IMG/VR virus record: IMGVR_UViG_3300033144_006256
Location: 20,645 to 84,644 of that record
Strand: one strand, 5' to 3'
Source of the DNA: a virus
DNA length: 64,000 nt
Below are positions 3,788 to 40,318 of this stretch, one piece after another; within the stretch, counting starts at the first letter, position 1; each line of letters opens with the position of its first letter. The notes under the pieces are model-generated. The model saw nothing but the letters and a program-made list of their open reading frames with translations. It searched no databases and was not told where the DNA came from. The position numbers and the translations under genes are program-made.

Positions 3788-4059
3788 AAATATTCTACTA
3801 CTTTAATCCCCAGTTTTTTACAAAGTTTTTTAAAATCATTTTTCCCATTATAATATTGATAAAAGATTATTGAAACATCATCTGATTTTCCTTTATAATA
3901 TCTATCCACAAAATAAGCAAATCCGCATTCTTTTTTATCTATTAAACCGCAGATATTATCCATATCACCAATATTTTTTCCTTCATAAGGGCAGAACCTT
4001 TTTACCTTTAAAGGAATTTCTATTACAAGATTATTGTTTTTTACAGATATTTTTTCCAT
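3784..4059 (-). CDS. Hypothetical protein, 91 aa, cysteine-containing
   Basis: Five Cys residues (CPYEG, NICG, KECG, KLCKK) in a mainly beta N-terminal half and helical C-terminus. The spacing is compatible with a metal site but matches no family I recognise. The start codon overlaps the stop of the methyltransferase gene (shared base 4059), so the two are coupled. Confidence 0.55.
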   Translation of the reverse strand: MEKISVKNNNLVIEIPLKVKRFCPYEGKNIGDMDNICGLIDKKECGFAYFVDRYYKGKSDDVSIIFYQYYNGKNDFKKLCKKLGIKVVEYL

Positions 4060-4724
4060 TATAATATTCTTTTATTTGCTATATTACAATAATTTTTACT
4101 TAATTCTATCCCTATAAATTTCCTATTAAATTGTTTTGCAATTTTTAATATAGTCCCACTACCACAGAAAGGATCAATTATTAAATCATTTTCTTCTGTT
4201 GTCGATAATATTATTCTTTTTGCAATTTCTTCAGGAATTGGACAGCTATGATTATTATTCTTTTTACTAACATTTTTAATTTGATTTACTTTCCACCAAT
4301 CGTAACTTCTACAAGTTTTTCCTTCTGCAATTCTTTTTTTTATTCTTTTATCATTAGGATTTTTATATTCTTGAGGTATTTTTCTAAAATCTGGTTTGCA
4401 ATTCCACCAAGTTATAATCCTATGTTGTTTTGCTGTATTGCTATTATATACCCAACTTACAGATTGTTGGCATAAACCCAAATCAAGTGTTGCTAAAATA
4501 TTTATTGTTTCTTCTGGATAATGAATTATTATTGATTTTTTATTTGAAAAAACATTATATAATAAATCCCTATATTCATCTACATCTAAATTATCAGTGT
4601 AATTATCATAATGATATTTTTGGTTATAAGGTGGATCGCTTATAAAAAATGCTTTAGATAATATTTTATTATCAATATTATCTAAAATTTCTAAACAGTC
4701 ACCTTGTATAATTTTATTTTCCAT
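4059..4724 (-). CDS. DNA methyltransferase, N4-cytosine/N6-adenine type
   Basis: 221 residues. Catalytic motif IV ISDPPY is near residue 29 and SAM-binding motif I DPFCGSGT near residue 184: the beta-class order of amino-methyltransferases. DPPY favours N6-adenine, but N4-cytosine is not excluded. The start chosen at 4724 (MENKIIQGD) matches the family N-terminus and leaves a leader of about 90 nt from the promoter at 4820-4847; an upstream in-frame start at 4808 would sit almost on the transcription start. The leader holds a hairpin (AATGCCA with TGGCATT). Likely protects phage DNA from restriction. Confidence 0.85.
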   Translation of the reverse strand: MENKIIQGDCLEILDNIDNKILSKAFFISDPPYNQKYHYDNYTDNLDVDEYRDLLYNVFSNKKSIIIHYPEETINILATLDLGLCQQSVSWVYNSNTAKQHRIITWWNCKPDFRKIPQEYKNPNDKRIKKRIAEGKTCRSYDWWKVNQIKNVSKKNNNHSCPIPEEIAKRIILSTTEENDLIIDPFCGSGTILKIAKQFNRKFIGIELSKNYCNIANKRIL

Positions 4725-4819
4725 TTTGTTTTCACAACAAGTTATAGTTATTTTTCCAAAGAATGCCACTAGCGATTGATGAACTAATGGCATTTTCAAG
4801 AAATACAACTTATATTTTT

Positions 4820-4847
4820 ATTATAGCAGATATTTAAAAAATGTCAA
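4820..4847 (-). promoter_or_regulatory. Sigma-70 promoter for leftward operon
   Basis: On the minus strand CGCTTGACA (-35 at 4842-4847), 16 bp spacer, TGC-TATAAT extended -10 (4820-4825). It belongs to a repeated promoter family in this phage and drives the methyltransferase operon. Confidence 0.85.
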
Positions 4848-4884: not shown

Positions 4885-4913
4885 TTGACATTTTTAGTAG
4901 TATGAATTATAAT
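4885..4913 (+). promoter_or_regulatory. Sigma-70 promoter for small RNA copy 1
   Basis: TTGACA 4885-4890, 17 bp spacer, TATAAT 4908-4913. The predicted start, about 4920, is the first base of the RNA closing stem. It is divergent from the promoter at 4820-4847. The 37 bp between them hold an imperfect TATAACCATTATA palindrome at 4855-4867, a possible shared operator. Confidence 0.85.
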
Positions 4914-4919
4914 ATAGTT

Positions 4920-5024
4920 AATGTATAGGGAAGATAGTTATAAAATTGATAACAGTTTTATAATCCGAGAAATCGGTGAAAACTTTTCTATACATTGCAT
5001 TTAACACCCGTAAGGGTGTTTTTT
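4920..5024 (+). ncRNA. Small structured RNA, copy 1 (three-way junction with GAAA tetraloop)
   Basis: About 105 nt between a strong promoter and an intrinsic terminator. P1: 4920-4933 pairs with 4983-4996 (14 bp with two G.U). P2: TTATAAAA / TTTTATAA, 10-nt loop. P3: CCGA-GAAA-TCGG. The terminator is AACACCC-GTAA-GGGTGTT plus T-tract (5003-5024). A second copy on the minus strand at 29094-29199 keeps the promoter spacing, the GAAA loop and the terminator but has different paired bases in P1, P2 and P3, so structure rather than sequence is conserved. No open frame fits inside. Confidence 0.85.
5003..5024 (+). terminator. Rho-independent terminator of small RNA copy 1
   Basis: 7-bp stem AACACCC/GGGTGTT, GTAA loop, then a T6 tract (5019-5024, including the last stem bases). 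The stretch from GGGTGT through TTGCTTGT is repeated at copy 2 on the minus strand. Confidence 0.9.
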
Positions 5025-5026
5025 GC

Positions 5027-5408
5027 TTGTTGAATAATGCGAATTATGTTCAACAAAAATACAATTATGTTTTTTGATATAAAAAGTTTTCGCTATATCG
5101 GAGTAGGCGTACGAAACTGACGAGTGTTTAGCCAGTTAAGTTTTCTGGTGAATTAAAAAAACGATATTTCTTAATTACCTAGTGACTGGGTTAAGAAATA
5201 ATGATAAGCGATTAAAATTAAATAACAAATATTCTAATTAAAAGGATTTTATATCGCCACCAATGCTTCTGTGTGCTTGTTATGTAGCTACAGATAACCG
5301 TCACGAAAAGGGTGCTGGGGTGCGGATCCTCTAAATATCCGCCACTTCTTGAAGAATAAATTTTTAATATTCTAACGCACAAAATCTAAACATCCCTTTT
5401 TATATCAA
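5027..5408 (+). ncRNA. Candidate large structured non-coding region
   Basis: No usable gene. A hairpin TTGTTGAA/TTCAACAA lies at 5027-5056. Then a 13-bp long-range stem (5074-5086 with 5396-5408) encloses CCAG/CTGG (5132-5148), ATTTCTTAA/TTAAGAAAT (5166-5199) and GCGGAT/ATCCGC (5322-5342). The GC-rich patch 5305-5345 stands out in AT-rich DNA. I found no match to tmRNA, RNase P or group I intron cores. Strand is assumed from the upstream promoter; it could be read-through from the small RNA or an independent transcript. Confidence 0.45.
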
Positions 5409-5649
5409 CATTCATATAAATATCCAATTTATTAATTCCATTTCAAAAGCGGGATAACTACAACAATTTTTGAAGAATAAATTATAAAGAAATAATATTA
5501 AACAAGTAAGAATAAAAAGAAATAAAAAAAAGAAAAAAACCGCTTGCGATAGCAAGCCACGAAGCGTAGCGAAGTGTGTATCGGAAATAAAAAATAAAAA
5601 ACAAAATATTAAATAATAGTAATAATTTTAAAAAAAGATAATACAACAC
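5409..5649. other. Non-coding, AT-rich stretch
   Basis: No gene seen. It holds poly-A-rich sequence, two GAAGAATAAAT copies (near 5350 and 5470) and the dispersed repeat at 5538-5586. Confidence 0.6.
5538..5586 (+). repeat. Dispersed GCGTAGCGAAG repeat, copy 1
   Basis: Contains CTTGCGATAGCAAG, a palindrome, then GAAGCGTAGCGAAG and GTATCGGAA. A diverged pair of units occurs in inverse orientation at 28587-28670. Both are non-coding and lie 0.4-0.6 kb downstream of a copy of the small RNA. Confidence 0.65.
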
Positions 5650-5677
5650 TTGACATTTTTCCTATATCTGTTATAAT
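5650..5677 (+). promoter_or_regulatory. Sigma-70 promoter, start of rightward early region
   Basis: TTGACA 5650-5655, 16 bp, TGT-TATAAT extended -10 at 5672-5677. It lies 30 bp upstream of the first gene of the rightward block at 5708. Confidence 0.85.
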
Positions 5678-7770: not shown

Positions 7771-7798
7771 TTGACATTTATTCTACATCTGCTATAAT
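7771..7798 (+). promoter_or_regulatory. Sigma-70 promoter
   Basis: GAACGCTTGACA with -35 at 7771-7776, 16 bp, TGC-TATAAT at 7793-7798. Nearly identical over about 36 bp to the promoter at 19646-19673. Confidence 0.85.
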
Positions 7799-9059: not shown

Positions 9060-9644
9060 ATGAAACAAAAATTAAAATGCAAGTTTTGTAAAAAAACATT
9101 CATAGATATAATCGGACAGGATAAAAATAATGCAATTTGTGATAATTGTGTAAATGGAAATGTCAGAATAATAAAAACATCTTGGTTCAGCTTAGTAGTT
9201 TTGATACTTTTAACAGCATTATTGATAAGTTGTTTTATGCTAAAAGTTGTATTGTTTGAAAGAGAATTAAAATCTATAACGGTTATAAAGATTGAAAGGC
9301 AAGAAATAATTGAAGAACCAGAAATTTTACCAGCGATTCCGCAACCAAAAAAGATATTATCATTAAAAGCCAGCTACTATGTAAATAACTGCTGTGGTAA
9401 AGATGTTTGTATTACAGCTAATGGCGAAGTATATGACGATAGCCAGCTTACCGCAGCGTGCAATCTTGTGCCACTAGGAACGATTTTAAATGTTCAGCAT
9501 AAAGAAAAAGAAATCACAGTAAGGGTAAATGATAGAATTAGCAAGAAATATGGCAATAGCAGAATAGATTTGTCCAAAGGGGCATTTGCAAAATTAGGGA
9601 ATTTAGAAGCGGGGTTGTTAAATGTAAAAGTTTTAATAAACTAA
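9060..9644 (+). CDS. Zinc-ribbon / transmembrane / RlpA-like (DPBB) protein
   Basis: 194 residues in three parts: a four-Cys zinc ribbon (CKFCKK and CDNCVN, residues 7-29), one transmembrane helix (about 42-65), and a C-terminal double-psi beta-barrel. The barrel carries RlpA-family signatures: KASYYVNN, TANGEVYD, VPLGTIL, VRVNDR and RIDLSKGAF, with the conserved Asp residues of the 3D/RlpA fold. Such domains bind or cut peptidoglycan. Placing a cytosolic metal ribbon on the same chain as an extracytoplasmic wall domain is unusual and suggests a signal-coupling or anchoring role (inference). Confidence 0.75.
   Translation: MKQKLKCKFCKKTFIDIIGQDKNNAICDNCVNGNVRIIKTSWFSLVVLILLTALLISCFMLKVVLFERELKSITVIKIERQEIIEEPEILPAIPQPKKILSLKASYYVNNCCGKDVCITANGEVYDDSQLTAACNLVPLGTILNVQHKEKEITVRVNDRISKKYGNSRIDLSKGAFAKLGNLEAGLLNVKVLIN
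9275..9287. promoter_or_regulatory. Palindrome TATAACGGTTATA inside the RlpA-like gene
   Basis: Exact 13-bp palindrome with one central base, within coding sequence. Identical to the site at 24061-24073. Confidence 0.4.
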
Positions 9645-9653
9645 ATTAAAATT

Positions 9654-10028
9654 ATGAAAGATTATAAAATTGAAACAAAACCTAGTTTTTGGGAAGTGAT
9701 ATTAAAAAGAGGTTGTTATTCTGACAAGGAAGAAAAACATTTATTTTTCAGAGCGAATGATGAGAATGAAGTTTGGAATTTTCTTTGTAGATATTTAGAA
9801 GATACTTTTGTAGATATATATAATTATGATGGTATTAGTCATATTGGTGCGATAAAAATTTACGGAGAAGATAAAAAAATTATAAAAAAGTTTGTTACAA
9901 ACAAATTAAAAAAATATTTGGTAGAAATGGAATATAGGGATGAAGATGAGATAGAATGGGATACTGATTATGGATATGCTTGGGCTTGTAAAATATTAAG
10001 ATTAAATGTAATAGAATTTAAAAAATAA
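9654..10028 (+). CDS. Hypothetical protein, 124 aa
   Basis: Acidic alpha/beta protein with many aromatic residues (VWNFLCRYLEDTFVDIYNYDG). No family recognised. It lies between the RlpA-like protein and the recombination genes. Confidence 0.55.
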   Translation: MKDYKIETKPSFWEVILKRGCYSDKEEKHLFFRANDENEVWNFLCRYLEDTFVDIYNYDGISHIGAIKIYGEDKKIIKKFVTNKLKKYLVEMEYRDEDEIEWDTDYGYAWACKILRLNVIEFKK

Positions 10029-10049
10029 ATAAACTAAAAAGGAGCAATA

Positions 10050-10901
10050 ATGGATAACTTAAATATAGAAAAATTTAATCCCACTAAGGCAGAAGTAATT
10101 AAAATAACTGATAAATACAAGAATATACAGATTAAAGGGTTAGAAGATAAACAAGGGTATTTAATTGCAAAATCAGGCAAGCAAGAATTATCAGCATTAA
10201 GAACAGCTGTTAAAAGTTATGGAAAAGAACAGCGGGTAGAAGCATTAAAATATCAGAAAGCAGTTATAAAAGCAGAGAATGAACTTTTAAAAATTATAAA
10301 ACCGATTGAAGATAAAATTAAATTAAAAATAGATTTAATAGATGGTGAAAAAGAAAAAATAAGAATGCAAAAATATCTTCCAGATAGAAAAGCAAGACTA
10401 AAAGAAATTGATATTGAACTTGAAGATAGTGAATTATTAGAAATGGATAATACAGAATTTGAAAACTTTTTTAATGAAAAGAAAACTGAAATTCTTGCAG
10501 AAAAAGAAAGAAAATTACAAGAAGCAGAAGATAAACTTGTAGAAGAAAAAAAGAAAATTGAAATTGATAAAGGGATTGCAAAAGCAAAAGAAGAAGCAAG
10601 AAAAGAAGCTATGAAACAAGCAAAAATAAATATAGAAAATGCAAAAATACAAGCTGAAAAAGATAAAAAGAAAGCAGTTGAAGAAGCAAAGCAGAAAATA
10701 CTTGATGAACAACAAGAAAAAGAAAATGCAAAAATAGTAGAAGAAGAAAAGAAAAAACAAGAAGCAGAAGAATTACGAAAACAAGAAAAATATCAACTTT
10801 TTCTTGAAAGAAATGATTATAAAGATGATGGAAGTTTCAAAATAGAAACAGAAGATGGTTTAGTTGTCCTTTATAAGAAGATTGATGAAATAATAATTTA
10901 A
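10050..10901 (+). CDS. DUF1351-like coiled-coil recombination-module protein
   Basis: 283 residues. N-terminal 80 residues form an alpha/beta cap with KGLEDKQGYLIAKSGKQEL; residues 100-250 are a long charged coiled coil; the C-terminus is YKIDEIII-like. Length, the early ALRTAVKSYGKEQR motif and the position just before a Rad52-type annealing protein match DUF1351 phage proteins of recombination modules. The precise role is unknown; a Gam- or SSB-like accessory is possible. RBS AAAGGAGC. Confidence 0.6.
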   Translation: MDNLNIEKFNPTKAEVIKITDKYKNIQIKGLEDKQGYLIAKSGKQELSALRTAVKSYGKEQRVEALKYQKAVIKAENELLKIIKPIEDKIKLKIDLIDGEKEKIRMQKYLPDRKARLKEIDIELEDSELLEMDNTEFENFFNEKKTEILAEKERKLQEAEDKLVEEKKKIEIDKGIAKAKEEARKEAMKQAKINIENAKIQAEKDKKKAVEEAKQKILDEQQEKENAKIVEEEKKKQEAEELRKQEKYQLFLERNDYKDDGSFKIETEDGLVVLYKKIDEIII

Positions 10902-10918
10902 TAAAGAAAGGTAAAATT

Positions 10919-11536
10919 ATGGCAAATGAAATTAAAAAACTACAAATAACAGAAGAAATAAGAAAACAGTTAAATGCACCGCTTCCAGCAGAAGCAATAT
11001 CAAAGCATCCAACTAAAACATTTCTAAGCACAATAAAATCTATTTTTATCATAGAACGATTAAACAGTGTATTCAAATTAGGCGGGTGGCATTTATCAAC
11101 AGAAATTATTAAAGAAACACCTGATTATGTTTTGGTAAAAGGTGAATTAAAAATACACGATTATGATGTGAAGATAACACCACAATTTGGAGGGCATAAT
11201 ACAACAGGTAAAGGAACAGAAATTGCAGATGGTTATAAAAGTGCTGTTACTGATTGCCTTAGTAAATGTGCTAGTTACCTTGAAATAGGCATAGATGTTT
11301 TTAAGGGGAAATCAACACCAGCACAAAGTTATAACAGTTATAGCAAACCAGCTTATACACCAAAACTAGCACAACAACAAACAACAGAACAACAGATGAA
11401 TAATCAAGACAAAAAAGATTTAACCTGCACAGAATGTTTAGTTGAAATCTCAGTTGCTGAATATGAATTTTCTAAGAAAAAATTTGGAAAAGCACTTTGC
11501 AGAAACTGTCAAGGCATAGCAAGGGGTAATGAATAA
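10919..11536 (+). CDS. Rad52/Rad22-type single-strand annealing protein
   Basis: 205 residues. Core residues 60-125 show the Rad52-superfamily pattern: GKGTEIADGYKSAVTDCLSK then CASYLEIGIDVFKGK. A linker rich in Gln and Thr leads to a C-terminal zinc finger (CTECLVEIS ... KKFGKALCRNCQ) common on phage recombinases. It anneals complementary single strands for recombination-dependent replication. The neighbours, a DUF1351-like protein before and a PD-(D/E)XK nuclease after, complete an annealing-exonuclease module. The stop overlaps the next start (TAATG). Confidence 0.8.
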   Translation: MANEIKKLQITEEIRKQLNAPLPAEAISKHPTKTFLSTIKSIFIIERLNSVFKLGGWHLSTEIIKETPDYVLVKGELKIHDYDVKITPQFGGHNTTGKGTEIADGYKSAVTDCLSKCASYLEIGIDVFKGKSTPAQSYNSYSKPAYTPKLAQQQTTEQQMNNQDKKDLTCTECLVEISVAEYEFSKKKFGKALCRNCQGIARGNE

Positions 11537-25963: not shown

Positions 25964-26652
25964 ATGCCATCAGGAGTTTATAAAAGAAGTGAATTAGAAA
26001 AAAATAGATTATATAATAATCTAAAATATAGTATTAGGGTTGGTATGACTGGCAAAAAGCATTCAGAGCATTCAAAAAAGAAGATGAGTAATTCTAAATT
26101 AGGTAAGCATTATTCGACAAGGACTGAGTTTAAAAAAGGTAACCCACCGTGGAATAAAGGCAAAAAATTATCAGATGAATATAGAAAAAAATTAAGTGAA
26201 TCACATAAGGGGTTGCAATCTTATTGGAAAGGCAGAAAAAGAGGAGCGATGTCAGATGAATGGAAAAGAAAAATATCAGAAGCTAATAGGGGGGGGCTAA
26301 AGGGAACGCTTGGAAAGGTGGTATAACAAAAAAACATTTTGCAGAAAGAAATAATGTTGAAATTAAAATTTGGAAGGCTAATATTTTTAAAAAATATAAT
26401 TGGTCTTGTAGAAAATGTGGTAAAATAGGTGGTAGGTTGCAAGCCCACCATATATATAATTTTTCTAGTCACATTAATTTTAGATCTAAGATTGATAATG
26501 GTATATTACTATGCAACGAATGCCATAAAGAATTTCATAAAATATATAAAAGGGTAAATAATAATATAGAGCAAATAGATATTTTTATAAATGGTTATAA
26601 TACTATAAAACAGTTTTTAAGGGATAATTATAAAGAAATATTTTGTGATTAA
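25964..26652 (+). CDS. NUMOD3-HNH homing endonuclease, frameshifted at a G8 run
   Basis: The first frame (25964-26326) carries NUMOD3 repeats (GKKHSEHSKKKMSNSKLGK, NKGKKLSDEYRKKLSESHKG). The second, to 26652, continues GNAWKGGITKKHF and an HNH nuclease (CRKCGKIGGRLQAHHIYNF, NGILLCNECHKEFH). The break is at G8 26289-26296 and needs a -1 shift; a G-run of that kind is slippery. As written, only the DNA-binding part is made. It lies between a truncated and a full copy of the likely small terminase gene, and a pseudoknot precedes its start. Confidence 0.8.
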
Positions 26653-26656
26653 AAAT

Positions 26657-27148
26657 ATGCCAGCATATAGTGAAGAGAAAAAAAATCAATTTATGGAGTA
26701 TATTAGAAGGCTATTAGTTATGAGTCCTAATATTTCTATTTTATCAATACAAGAATCTCTTGAAAAAAGTAAAGGGATAAGGCTAGATAAAGATTATATA
26801 CATAAACTAAGAAACAAAATATTTGCAGAAAGAGCGAATAGGTATAATTATTATACTATAAAAAAATTGTTGCCAGAATATAGTGACGAAATAGAAATAA
26901 TTAAAAGTAGATTGTGGAGCATATTAAATAACAAAGATGCTGAAGATAGAGATAAAATTAGGGCTCTAAGTGAAATAAGAAATTCAAGTAAAGATTTACT
27001 AAACGCTATGGCTGATGCTGGCGTATTTACAAGGGAGATAGGAAAACTTGATACTGGTATGGCTGAAATAGTAAAGATGATTAAAGAATACTACCCTAAA
27101 AAAGAAATAAAGCCAGAAGATGTGCCAGGTGAAGCACCGCAGGAATAG
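26657..27148 (+). CDS. Probable terminase small subunit
   Basis: 163 residues. The N-terminal 60 residues are helical with a possible helix-turn-helix (NISILSIQESLEKSKGIRLD, KDYIHKLRNKIFAERANRY). The middle SRLWSILNNKDAEDRDKIRA, LSEIRNSSKDLLNAMADAG resembles the oligomerisation helices of phage small terminases. It lies 2.1 kb before the large subunit. TerS is inferred from architecture and position; a different DNA-binding protein is possible. Start ATG 26657 chosen over an in-frame codon at 26645. Confidence 0.5.
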   Translation: MPAYSEEKKNQFMEYIRRLLVMSPNISILSIQESLEKSKGIRLDKDYIHKLRNKIFAERANRYNYYTIKKLLPEYSDEIEIIKSRLWSILNNKDAEDRDKIRALSEIRNSSKDLLNAMADAGVFTREIGKLDTGMAEIVKMIKEYYPKKEIKPEDVPGEAPQE

Positions 27149-27150
27149 TG

Positions 27151-27181
27151 TTAGAAGCCCCAAAATTGCGTTCTAAGGGGT
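27151..27181 (+). terminator. Hairpin/pseudoknot after probable TerS
   Basis: TTAGAA 27151-27156 / TTCTAA 27171-27176 and GCCCC 27157-27161 / GGGGT 27177-27181 interlock; the GCCCC/GGGGT helix is followed by TTT and can act as a weak terminator. Confidence 0.4.
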
Positions 27182-27212
27182 TTTAAAGTAAAAAGTAATT
27201 ATAATATACATT

Positions 27213-27332
27213 ATGGAAAAAGAAACATTTGATGCAATAAGAATAATAATATCTTGTTTTGGCTTATCTGTCGCAATAATAGGATTTTTTTATGGAAGTA
27301 ATCACAGGATATACAGGGTTTATGGTTTTTAA
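27213..27332 (+). CDS. Small membrane protein, 39 aa
   Basis: MEKETFDAIR then one hydrophobic helix (IIISCFGLSVAIIGFFY). The next gene starts inside it in another frame, a nested pair of small membrane proteins. Confidence 0.4.
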   Translation: MEKETFDAIRIIISCFGLSVAIIGFFYGSNHRIYRVYGF

Positions 27333-27393
27333 TGCTTTGGCTATATTCGCTTGGAGTATTTATTTAAGAAAAATTTATATTGAAAATAAGTAG
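27292..27393 (+). CDS. Small membrane protein, 33 aa
   Basis: MEVITGYTGFMVFNALAIF then AWSIYLRKIYIENK; one helix. Overlaps the upstream gene by 41 bases in another frame. The nested layout recalls holin/antiholin or spanin pairs, without family proof. Confidence 0.4.
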   Translation: MEVITGYTGFMVFNALAIFAWSIYLRKIYIENK

Positions 27394-27452
27394 CTTATCT
27401 AAGCCAAAAGTGCTAATTCTATGGGGGGTTCATTTTACATAATAGTTAAAAT

Positions 27453-27518
27453 ATGAAACAAGAAGATTGGCAAAAAATATAAGGTTTATTAGAAAGGCAA
27501 AAAAATGAAAAAACATAA
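27453..27518 (+). pseudogene. Tiny gene with in-frame stop
   Basis: MKQEDWQKI, TAA (27480-27482), then GLLERQKNEKT in the same frame. Looks like a 21-residue peptide gene with a nonsense change. Weak. Confidence 0.2.
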
Positions 27519-27741
27519 TCCATATAAACTAACTATAGAAAAAATAGAAAACGGCTTTTTGCTAACCCATAATGAACAACTTGACGATGATTGGGTAAAA
27601 GAACGCAAGGAAGCAATCATAGAAGATGATGATGAAGAAAAAGAAATAGTAGCAGTGCTTCAACAAGTAGCTGAATATTTTGGTATTTATAATAGCAAAC
27701 ATAAAGAAAGAAATTTAGAGATAGGATTTAAAAAAAATTGA
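27505..27741 (+). CDS. Conserved phage hypothetical protein near terminase, 78 aa
   Basis: ENGFLLTHNEQ, an acidic stretch, then AVLQQVAEYFGIYNSKHKERN is the pattern of a small protein common before terminase genes in phages. AGAAAGG site. Function unknown. Confidence 0.6.
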   Translation: MKKHNPYKLTIEKIENGFLLTHNEQLDDDWVKERKEAIIEDDDEEKEIVAVLQQVAEYFGIYNSKHKERNLEIGFKKN

Positions 27742-27818
27742 TAAAGTATTTGATATAGTATATTGTTTTAGAATGATTAAAATTATTTGGTGAATATTGG
27801 GATAGTATGTGGTATTAA

Positions 27819-27891
27819 GCAGATGTAGTTTAACTGTTAAAACTATCATTCCAACAAAATGATTTTAGCGGTACAACTCCGTTCATCTGCA
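27819..27891 (+). tRNA. tRNA-like gene, degenerate (tRNA-Gly-like)
   Basis: Acceptor GCAGATG 27819-27825 pairs perfectly with CATCTGC 27884-27890, discriminator A. D arm GTTT/AAAC. Anticodon stem TCATT/AATGA with loop CCAACAA. T arm AGCGG/CCGTT with loop TACAACT in place of the usual TTCRANN. The GCAGATGTAGTTTAA start resembles tRNA-Gly(UCC), but position 33 is C instead of U and one extra base precedes the anticodon stem, so decoding is doubtful. It may be a tRNA-like structure or decoy. No encoded CCA. Confidence 0.5.
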
Positions 27892-27924
27892 CAGGTTTTT
27901 TAACATTAAATAAAGGAGGGAATA

Positions 27925-28419
27925 ATGACAATAATACCAGTAGTAATTATTGTATTAAAGAAATGTAACCATTTTGTATTAGTAGTTAATTCAACTAAAC
28001 TCAATGGAAAAGCATTCCCAGGTGGTAAAATTAAATTTGGTGAAACAATAAGAGAAGCAACAATGCGTGAAGCGAAAGAAGAATTAGGTATTGATGTTAA
28101 GGTTGAAAGAATAATCGGGTATGGTGAAATGATAACAGCTGGATATGCAGGTGATAGAAAATATTTATCATATGCAGAACTAAACGCACTGCCAGAAACA
28201 CAGAAAAGAAATTTTATTAATCCGTGTAGTAAAAAACATTATTTATTCTATACAGTCCTTTGTTCAAAGAAATTTAAGAATAGCAGAGTAGTATTGAATG
28301 AAGAAGCCACAGAATGTTTTTGGGTCACAATTAATGAGTTAGAAGAATGTGGGTTAAATGGAATTTGGGAACAGCCGATAGGACACATTAAACAATCAAT
28401 GTTTAAAAATCCATATTAG
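27925..28419 (+). CDS. NUDIX hydrolase
   Basis: 164 residues. Complete Nudix box: GGKIKFGETIREATMREAKE then ELGI (GX5EX7REUXEEXGU). Upstream FPGG is the usual lead-in. Hydrolyses a nucleoside diphosphate derivative; the substrate cannot be told. A good AAAGGAGGG site precedes the ATG. It lies alone between the tRNA-like gene and the non-coding region, so it might act on NDP-sugars used by the glycan cassette or on oxidised or capped nucleotides (inference). Confidence 0.85.
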   Translation: MTIIPVVIIVLKKCNHFVLVVNSTKLNGKAFPGGKIKFGETIREATMREAKEELGIDVKVERIIGYGEMITAGYAGDRKYLSYAELNALPETQKRNFINPCSKKHYLFYTVLCSKKFKNSRVVLNEEATECFWVTINELEECGLNGIWEQPIGHIKQSMFKNPY

Positions 28420-28501
28420 TTCTTTATCAAATAAGAAATATGGTATAACTGTTAAAAGAATACAAAGATTTTGTTTATAATACTTCCAATATTCTTAAAA
28501 G

Positions 28502-28534
28502 GGGGCGGAATGCTAATGATGCAATATCCGCCCC
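28502..28534 (+). terminator. Strong GC hairpin after NUDIX gene
   Basis: GGGGCGGA 28502-28509 / TCCGCCCC 28527-28534, flanked by AAGAATA / TATTCTT. No T-tract on either strand. May stabilise or end the early transcript. Confidence 0.5.
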
Positions 28535-28586
28535 AAAATACTAATATTTCCAAGTATTATTTAAGGTTTTGTTATTAGTTTTATAC

Positions 28587-28670
28587 TTCCGATACAAACT
28601 TCGCTACGCTCGTTGCTTTTGTATAAAACACCCTTCGCTACGCTACGGGGTTTTCTATCAAAAGCGGTTT
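28587..28670 (-). repeat. Dispersed GCGTAGCGAAG repeat, inverted, two units
   Basis: Read on the minus strand it contains AAAACCGCTT, a CCCCGTAGCGTAGCGAAG unit and a GAGCGTAGCGAAG unit followed by GTATCGGAA, matching the copy at 5538-5586. The plus-strand CACCC/GGGG pair inside could end rightward transcripts. Confidence 0.6.
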
Positions 28671-29093
28671 TCTTTTTTCTATAATCTTTTCTAAACTTTT
28701 TCTTTATTGTTTATATTTATCTGCTTAGTGTTGGCATAGTTATCCCATAGCGATATTTAAAAAAATATAACCTTATAATGCCTTCTGTGGAGTTTTTCTA
28801 AAGACTAAGTTACTATCCTTAAACAAATGTTACAAAAAAAATGTAAATTTGGCGGCCTCTTTTCCTATATTACCATTGGATAGCATCCCATTTCGGAAAG
28901 GTCGTGCTTTTGCACACATAGAGTATTGATTTTGCTGATGCAACTATCACGCTTTAGAATTAAGGAGGAGTGGTTACCTTCAAGTATGCTCTCCCCACAG
29001 GATTAACAAACTATATCATATGTAGTAGGGTGATTAGATAAAAGCACATAAGCACACTTACTTTATCTTATTCGTTCCCTACATTTTACAAGC

Positions 29094-29116
29094 AAAAAAC
29101 ACCCAATAAAGGGTGT
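29094..29116 (-). terminator. Terminator of small RNA copy 2
   Basis: Minus-strand ACACCC-TTTATT-GGGTGT then TTTTTT. The stem 3' arm through TTGCTTGT is identical to the copy-1 terminator. Confidence 0.85.
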
Positions 29117-29199
29117 CTGATGCAATGAGATATAATATTTTACCAATTTCTTGGCATACAAATTTGTCGATAAAATTGTAATTTATATTATATTCCATT
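29094..29199 (-). ncRNA. Small structured RNA, copy 2 (three-way junction with GAAA tetraloop)
   Basis: Minus-strand RNA of about 106 nt. P1: 29185-29199 with 29124-29138 (AATG/CATT, two mismatches, then 9 bp). P2: 29157-29180 (TACAA-TTTT / AAAT-TTGTA type, one T.T). P3: CCAA-GAAA-TTGG (29143-29154). Terminator ACACCC / GGGTGT 29099-29116 on the plus map, then T6. Compared with copy 1, the promoter, GTTAATG start, GAAA loop, CATTGCAT and terminator are kept, while paired bases in all three stems differ but still pair. Confidence 0.85.
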
Positions 29200-29205
29200 A
29201 ACCAT

Positions 29206-29234
29206 ATTATAATTTACTTTTAAAAAATTGTCAA
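29206..29234 (-). promoter_or_regulatory. Sigma-70 promoter for small RNA copy 2
   Basis: Minus-strand TTGACA (29229-29234), 17 bp, TATAAT (29206-29211). The -35 box ends at the base before the terminase ATG at 29235. RNA starts 7 bases after the -10, as in copy 1. Confidence 0.85.
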
Positions 29235-30704
29235 ATGGATAAACAAGAATTAGAAAATATAGCAGAGTCACAATTAAATTTTAGTGAATTTATTAAAAGA
29301 ATATTCTCTAAAAGTTTTGATAAATTTATCGGTGGGCAATACCCAACAGATGTTGCTAATTTTATGCAATATTATCACGATAAAGGGAAAAATACGATTA
29401 GAATATCAGCAAGGTTGCACGGAAAATCAACTTTTATTTATGCATATATAATGTGGCTAATATTCAGAATGGATAAAGATTTATCCATTATTTATTTTTC
29501 ATATAGCGGGAAAATGTCCGCATACCATATAACTAAGATAAAAAAACTAATACAGAACAATCCATACTTTAATGAACTTATTGATTTAAAACCAACAGCA
29601 GAAACACTAATGGCATATAGGTGGAAGAACAGCAAACACGAAGTAACAGTTAACCCACAAGGGCTATTAGGGTTTAAGCGAGGTTTACACAGCTCAGTAG
29701 TTATTATAGATGACCCATATTCTATTGACAAAGAAATTGTAAATGAAGTAGTAAACTTTTCAAATGTTGCCAAAATAAATAATATTATTAAAGCACAGGT
29801 GTTAGATATACCATATGTTGATGGCGGTGAAATACATATAGTTGGCACGCCATTTTCAAATGATGATGTGTTTTTTGATAAAGAATTAAGAAAGATGTTT
29901 GCATTCTGGCAAGCCCCAGCGATTAAAGATGAAAAGAATAAAATAGCATTATGGCCTGAATATATGGATTGGGATGAATTAATGAAAAGGAAAGTAACCA
30001 GAAGTAATTTTTTTGCCCGTGAATATCTTTGCCAGCCGATAATTGCAAGCGAAGGGTATCTTACAAAAGAACAAGTATTAAGTGTAGTTGACGATAGCTT
30101 AACAAATAACGATATTTATGATATAATGACAACGCCTGCAAATACAATAGCAGGATTTGATATAGGAAAGAAGCTACACCCATCAGCAATAACTGTCCTT
30201 AGATGGGATGGGACAGCTTATAAAGAGATATACAATAGATTTTTAGATAATTGGGATTATACAAATGGCGGAGAATTTGACCCTGATAATCCAACACAAT
30301 TAGAATTATTAAAACTTGTAGTAAAGAATTTAAAAGTTGATATTTTATACTTTGATAATACTCGTGGGGAATTTGAAGCGTTTATAGAAACACAGAGCTT
30401 GCCACAACAGGCAATCCCAGTAGTATTTTCTTTAAAAGAAAAAACAGCTATGGCAATGCATCTTAGCAATGCCATAACTGAAAAACTAATTTTAATACAA
30501 AACAAACAGAGATCTATCAACAGTTTATTATCTGTTATGAAAGATTTACAATCAATAGAAACACCAGAAGGTCACGGGGATATGTTTTGGGCAATGGCAT
30601 TGGCTGCAAAAGCCCTTTATGAAATACACCCAAGAGAAGGTGGGGCAAAAGTATCCACAGGTTCACCATCAATAGTAGATGGCGAAATACCGAAAGGATA
30701 CTAA
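29235..30704 (+). CDS. Terminase large subunit
   Basis: 489 residues, the packaging motor. ATPase: Walker A ISARLHGKST at residues 57-66, Walker B SVVIIDDP at 154-161. RNase H-like nuclease with Asp in GFDIGKKLHPSA (about 306), ILYFDNTRG (about 372) and GDMFWAMALA (about 449). Length is normal. It is followed at 15 bases by the portal. The ATG is directly next to the -35 box of the antisense-direction small RNA promoter, so terminase translation and that promoter share DNA. The gene itself has no clear ribosome site. Confidence 0.9.
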   Translation: MDKQELENIAESQLNFSEFIKRIFSKSFDKFIGGQYPTDVANFMQYYHDKGKNTIRISARLHGKSTFIYAYIMWLIFRMDKDLSIIYFSYSGKMSAYHITKIKKLIQNNPYFNELIDLKPTAETLMAYRWKNSKHEVTVNPQGLLGFKRGLHSSVVIIDDPYSIDKEIVNEVVNFSNVAKINNIIKAQVLDIPYVDGGEIHIVGTPFSNDDVFFDKELRKMFAFWQAPAIKDEKNKIALWPEYMDWDELMKRKVTRSNFFAREYLCQPIIASEGYLTKEQVLSVVDDSLTNNDIYDIMTTPANTIAGFDIGKKLHPSAITVLRWDGTAYKEIYNRFLDNWDYTNGGEFDPDNPTQLELLKLVVKNLKVDILYFDNTRGEFEAFIETQSLPQQAIPVVFSLKEKTAMAMHLSNAITEKLILIQNKQRSINSLLSVMKDLQSIETPEGHGDMFWAMALAAKALYEIHPREGGAKVSTGSPSIVDGEIPKGY

Positions 30705-40186: not shown

Positions 40187-40258
40187 AGCAGGGTAGAATA
40201 GCGGTAGCTCATTGGGCTTATATCCAAAAGGTCGTCGGTTCGAACCAGACCCCCGCCA
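40187..40258 (+). tRNA. Initiator-like tRNA with UAU anticodon (degenerate)
   Basis: Homologous to tRNA-fMet: AGCGGTAGCTC D-loop region, GGG at the 5' side of the anticodon stem, AGGTC variable loop, GTCGG-TTCGAAC T arm. Anticodon loop CTTATAT gives UAU (reads AUA). Acceptor AGCAGGG (40187-40193) / CCCCGCC (40251-40257), discriminator A. Pairs 1:72 (A.C, initiator-like mismatch), 4:69, 12:23, 29:41 and 52:62 are mismatched. CCA is not encoded (ACA). The complementary strand shows the usual spurious ORF of tRNA antisense. Could be functional, decoy or decaying. Confidence 0.65.
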
Positions 40259-40318
40259 CAATTATAATATGATAGAATCATAGAAACACGTTATAGGCGT
40301 GAAATTAAGGAAAAATAA

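Follow-up and report, generated by a model that had tools for sequence, protein, structure and literature searches.

Two intergenic sites in the viral DNA analysed here are, we are confident, a genuine pair of RNA genes, and probably a functional one. They appear to be paralogous genes, now diverged, each for a phage small RNA of about 105-110 nt transcribed on its own; the product would be a compact three-way junction with most of its bases paired. Structured RNA families are usually recognised only when carried by many genomes, and to our knowledge the functions of phage-encoded ones are mostly not known. The stretch analysed, termed the window, comprises 64,000 bases (20645-84644 of an 84,644-base virus record). 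An earlier note on this DNA had described a two-copy unit with its parts in the same order, and the sequence at both sites bears this out: the order is identical at 4885-5030 (+) and 29234-29088 (-). The ends originally given were near right, conservation reaching slightly beyond them, to 5030 and 29088. The parts are as follows, the stems being assigned from the fold and from comparison of pairs between the copies.

4885-4913, + strand: copy 1 promoter, TTGACA-17-TATAAT, 12/12 consensus
4917-5024, + strand: copy 1 RNA, predicted transcript of about 105-108 nt, from the fold, with the start estimated from the -10 spacing
4920-4933, + strand: copy 1 P1 5' strand, partner 4983-4996
4939-4962, + strand: copy 1 P2 arm
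4965-4976, + strand: copy 1 P3 arm, CCGA-GAAA-TCGG
4983-4996, + strand: copy 1 P1 3' strand, ending in the CATT of CATTGCAT
5003-5030, + strand: copy 1 intrinsic terminator and conserved tail TTTTTTGCTTGT
29206-29234, - strand: copy 2 promoter, TTGACA-17-TATAAT, its -35 abutting the terminase ATG at 29235
29094-29202, - strand: copy 2 RNA, predicted transcript, from the fold of a stretch one base longer
29186-29199, - strand: copy 2 P1 5' strand, partner 29137-29124
29157-29180, - strand: copy 2 P2 arm
29143-29154, - strand: copy 2 P3 arm, CCAA-GAAA-TTGG
29124-29137, - strand: copy 2 P1 3' strand
29088-29118, - strand: copy 2 intrinsic terminator and conserved tail

Each unit has its own promoter and intrinsic terminator with no gene between them, the arrangement that characterizes a phage-encoded intergenic structured small RNA. 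Both promoters match the consensus at 12/12 positions, with a 17-bp spacer, and both terminators have the form ACACCC...GGGTGTTTTTTGCTTGT. The predicted transcript of either unit begins near GTTAATG and has a core of ~85 nt; of the 83 core positions that align, 33 differ between the copies, and copy 1, used as a BLASTN query against the whole of its own record, matched copy 2 with E 5.9e-13. When the record and four relatives were scanned for short promoter-to-terminator units (promoter at least 10/12), these two were the only ones in their own record and, with their perfect promoters, the strongest folding per base among all matches of the scan. Further perfect TTGACA/TATAAT promoters are present at 4820-4847 (-) and at 5650-5677, 7771, 17627 and 19646 (+), with two more upstream of the window; several of them have a TG just before the -10 and related downstream sequence, unlike both RNA promoters, and that at 7771 stands at the start of a 261-nt gap in which there are no long ORFs. 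The -10 of copy 2 (ATTATAAT) is palindromic, and a bidirectional promoter is possible there.

Each RNA folds as a three-way junction, in which a closing stem, P1 (14-16 bp), encloses two arms, P2 and, capped by a GAAA loop, P3; the terminator follows. The fold energies, -37.7 kcal/mol for copy 1 and -29.7 kcal/mol for copy 2, correspond to z values of -6.8 and -4.6 against dinucleotide shuffles, and 0/200 such shuffles folded as well. With a 1-nt gap set in the P3-P1 joiner, 25 of copy 1's 27 core pairs can still form in copy 2, the two broken ones being an A.C mismatch in P1 and a U.U mismatch in P2; ten pairs are changed on both sides (seven in P1, two in P2, one in P3). Permuting the changed 3' letters gave P values of about 3e-4 for the number of pairs retained and 1e-4 for that of double changes, figures that are strong, not assumption-free, the single core gap having been positioned by hand and the same gap used in the null. 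MAFFT sets this gap at the base of P1, wrongly, and because of the misplacement RNAalifold run on that alignment misses most of P1. The minimum-energy fold of copy 2 alone has 27 of the 32 pairs of copy 1's fold; of 5,000 simulated descendants, made by randomly changing copy 1 at the same 33 sites, none shared 27 pairs, the mean being 4.7. Compensatory change of the sort that distinguishes a phage-encoded structured small RNA is thus found, on one comparison of two sequences from a single virus record. The ten double changes and the outcome of the simulations support the claim, made earlier, of selection on RNA structure; since the fold is kept through the sequence differences, the shape of the RNA is probably what matters.

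What has been conserved despite drift of the helices is the pairing itself, the GAAA loop, the A-rich P3-P1 joiner and the base of P1; the loops are AUAA and GAAA in copy 1, AUCGAC and GAAA in copy 2. The CATTGCAT sequence, previously listed as an element in its own right, is present, but most of it (CATTG, possibly C) belongs to the 3' strand of P1: its P1-base part pairs with the 5' end GTTAATG, and there is no separate single-stranded element or free linker. A local fold profile over the rest of the two regions revealed nothing else consistent between them.

It is very improbable that the units are instead genes for a leaderless microprotein, with its ATG near the predicted transcription start. 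The ATG-started frame is open in both copies, for 27 codons in copy 1, where the stop lies before the terminator, and for 39 codons in copy 2, where it continues through the terminator. The differences between the copies are spread 10/9/11 over codon positions, giving no sign of coding in the two RNA units; this even spread and the crossing of the copy 2 terminator led us to reject coding as the main constraint.

A covariance model built from the two copies scored them at 125 and 109 bits against the whole 84.6-kb record and found no third copy there. No Rfam 15 family matched either RNA at the gathering threshold, and in relaxed searches (E up to 10) the best matches were at chance level, copy 1 reaching 21.1 bits where 45 are required and copy 2 19.7 where 44 are. 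The RNA is therefore an orphan, as the statement that it belongs to no known class had anticipated, and no description of an RNA of this form was found in the part of the literature covered by our search. Its kind is familiar, that of a phage small RNA with promoter, structure and terminator, of which these copies are an orphan member.

Searches for homologues gave the same picture. Exact-peptide searches with the terminase and capsid returned none, and profile searches then yielded relatives. The covariance model found no match in the related phages obtained by capsid or by terminase, several of which are fragments, and the reach of a two-sequence model is limited, so that absence from relatives is not proved; the model matches in L070 and L154 rest mainly on the terminator and are due to chance. 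Nor did promoter-plus-terminator scans of the relatives detect an analogue of the RNA unit. There was no credible model match in 392 and 90 sampled Bacillota genomes (phylum and order, respectively, of a Firmicutes bin), a weak test. A scan of GTDB genomes with the core pattern gave zero matches, and the matches from the IMG/VR pattern scans (2, 12 and 4) were rejected: not one has the fold of the RNA, and they seem to be chance matches. BLASTN of the RNA against phages gave chance matches alone; one, in an Aerococcus phage, was rejected as partial (58 bases) and situated just upstream of an ordinary gene. Comparison of the intergenic regions with phages and plasmids produced nothing useful.

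Among known RNAs, 6S RNA has a long stem closing a junction from which a second stem extends. The present RNA has a similar closing stem and junction, in a core of 85 nt that is about half the length of 6S RNA, and the Rfam 6S families matched neither copy at gathering or relaxed thresholds. For a possible mode of action there is a precedent in RCd22: about 100-130 nt long, structured and encoded by a prophage, it has a SigA promoter and a terminator of its own and acts by binding protein directly (PMC12373285). RCd22, or abiF motif RNA (RF03085), of Clostridioides difficile prophages resembles ours in phage origin, structure and possession of a promoter and terminator, and provides an example of a phage RNA of similar size acting by protein binding. 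RCd22 differs in its two repeated abiF hairpins and in its place upstream of an Abi_2 toxin gene; our RNA contains no such repeat. Neither RNA matched RF03085 at gathering or relaxed thresholds, no Abi_2 gene was found in the record, and a ToxN search of the record, run without a positive control, was empty; the tandem RNA motif beside an Abi_2 or ToxN-like toxin gene that defines abiF motif RNAs and type III antitoxins is thus not seen. ROOL and GOLLD, also phage-encoded structured RNAs (PMC12286853), are far larger, many GOLLD members exceeding 800 nt, and their Rfam families were not matched.

The genomic surroundings bear on possible links with packaging. Head proteins encoded in the window are of Mu type: a gpT-like capsid, a Mu-type portal and an S78 protease. 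Copy 1 is flanked by a divergent DNA methyltransferase gene (4059-4808, - strand, N6/N4 type) and by a gene for a 187-aa protein that matches no family; copy 2 has a NUDIX gene on one side and the terminase large subunit (TerL) gene on the other. The closest relatives by capsid are 46-50% identical, and most of those by TerL about 35-42%. In L146, the best syntenic relative, the terminase subunit genes overlap (TerS 9550-10041, TerL 9995-11359), whereas the TerS gene of the window (26645-27148), the product of which is 50% identical to that of L146, is separated from TerL by 2.1 kb:

27149-29234, no strand assigned: 2.1-kb accessory insertion between the TerS and TerL genes relative to L146, containing a 78-aa ORF, tRNA-Val, the NUDIX gene and the copy 2 region

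Because of this difference from L146, copy 2 can be placed, on gene order, in accessory DNA, and its position beside the terminase is most simply explained as the landing site of the insertion. The tRNA-Val (AAC) of the insertion is at 27819-27892. There is no clear Shine-Dalgarno site at the TerL start (29210-29237), where the -35 and spacer of the RNA promoter occupy that place. Elsewhere in the window, a tRNA-Ile with anticodon UAU (40187-40259, an ARAGORN call) would, if functional, represent an unusual reading of AUA in bacteria, and a long run of genes downstream of the capsid gene (40893-63649), several of them glycosyltransferase- or methyltransferase-like, is similar in the close relatives G003 and G013. 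A methyltransferase 65% identical to that beside copy 1 is found in G013, where the RNA model has no match.

The packaging RNA of phi29 is, in its short form, about 120 nt long. It is an essential phage RNA built on a three-way junction (PMC5340915), and an equivalent serving the terminase here could be imagined from the junction it has in common with our RNA and from the adjacency of copy 2 to a terminase gene. We regard this as extremely doubtful. The present RNA differs from phi29 pRNA in its terminase context and in existing as two copies, of which copy 1 is 24 kb away; RF00044 (phi29 pRNA) is absent from the Rfam matches even at E up to 10; our covariance model has no match in relatives that share this type of terminase; and the complementary interlocking arm loops of phi29 pRNA were not seen on inspection of either copy, those of copy 1, AUAA and GAAA, not being complementary. 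The packaging-linked role suggested earlier finds no support, the RNA model having no match in TerL relatives at ~35-42% or in the capsid relatives, and copy 2 lying in an insertion; the 'early' role proposed alongside it is likewise unsupported.

Similarity between the loci extends beyond the RNA. The two intergenic regions are collinear over ~700 nt and align in two parts only, the RNA unit and a distal block:

5512-5620, + strand: second shared block, AGCGTAGCGAAG units and an A-rich run, in the same order and on the same strand relative to the RNA
28550-28720, - strand: second shared block at locus 2, counterpart of 5512-5620

The middle, between RNA unit and distal block, is unalignable (366-481 nt, z 1.8). 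The block appears to be part of the same duplicated segment as the RNA, and an old duplication in which these two parts alone have stayed recognisable is likely; the block may be a terminator, a repeat element or part of an origin. If each ~700-nt region were a replication origin, the RNA could be a primer or a regulator of replication, and the sharing of RNA and second block, with its repeated AGCGTAGCGAAG units beside an A-rich run, by two collinear non-coding regions would be in keeping with this. Such an origin-linked RNA is nonetheless improbable: GC skew shows no sign change at either site, and the terminators at 5003-5024 and 29118-29094 would stop a primer 370-490 nt short of the shared block.

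The positions of the promoters raise another possibility, that the units act in cis, the divergent promoter and terminator interfering with or insulating the neighbouring gene and the RNA being a by-product; at locus 2 the unit would be antisense to any transcript entering terminase from upstream. The -35 of copy 2 abuts the terminase ATG, itself without a clear Shine-Dalgarno site, and copy 1 diverges from the methyltransferase promoter. We think a cis element unlikely, as it leaves unaccounted for a three-way junction kept through ten compensatory changes; at locus 1, moreover, the methyltransferase promoter is outside the RNA, and no overlapping minus-strand transcription unit is seen there, a terminator-like site being present at 5557 (-).

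The alternative is action in trans. An antisense small RNA, pairing with phage or host mRNAs and altering their translation or decay, would typically have the size, strong promoter and terminator seen here, and its seeds could differ from copy to copy. The fold leaves few bases unpaired, though: those of the GAAA and P2 loops, of short joiners and of a small stretch ahead of the terminator. Those that are conserved are mainly in the GAAA loop and the A-rich joiner, and the P2 loop, which would be a natural seed, is not the same in the two copies. Complementarity to phage start regions is not clearly above that of shuffles: masked duplex predictions to 131 such regions were at about shuffle level, the best duplex of copy 1 (-5.1) being slightly beyond the best shuffle (-4.5) and that of copy 2 not beyond shuffles. 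Antisense action thus deserves some weight but seems unlikely.

A protein-binding RNA is favoured over an antisense one, because the RNA offers few single-stranded positions and a target seed was not detected, and recognition by a protein is pointed to by the keeping of shape while sequence drifts. Our preferred reading, held tentatively and at somewhat less than an even chance, is thus of a trans-acting, protein-binding accessory RNA. Each gene would be transcribed from its consensus housekeeping-sigma promoter to its own terminator, probably without a phage factor, since consensus promoters suggest that host polymerase would suffice, and the product would be bound in trans by a protein that reads its shape, not its sequence. 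The function would be an accessory, 'moron'-like one, most plausibly as decoy or inhibitor of a host protein of defence or RNA metabolism; next to neither copy did we recognise a gene for a toxin or an RNA-binding protein. A bolder version, which we consider rather unlikely, is of a new class of phage decoy RNA: imitating a host RNA, it would sequester a protein of defence or RNA processing, the small three-way junction being made at once from a host promoter and the two copies covering variant targets.

Two diverged copies in one virus thus contain enough compensatory change to support a fold without an outside homologue. If homologues never turn up, the RNA will be a single-phage curiosity; if it binds a host protein, the few anti-host RNAs known would be joined by one that is small and easily tested.
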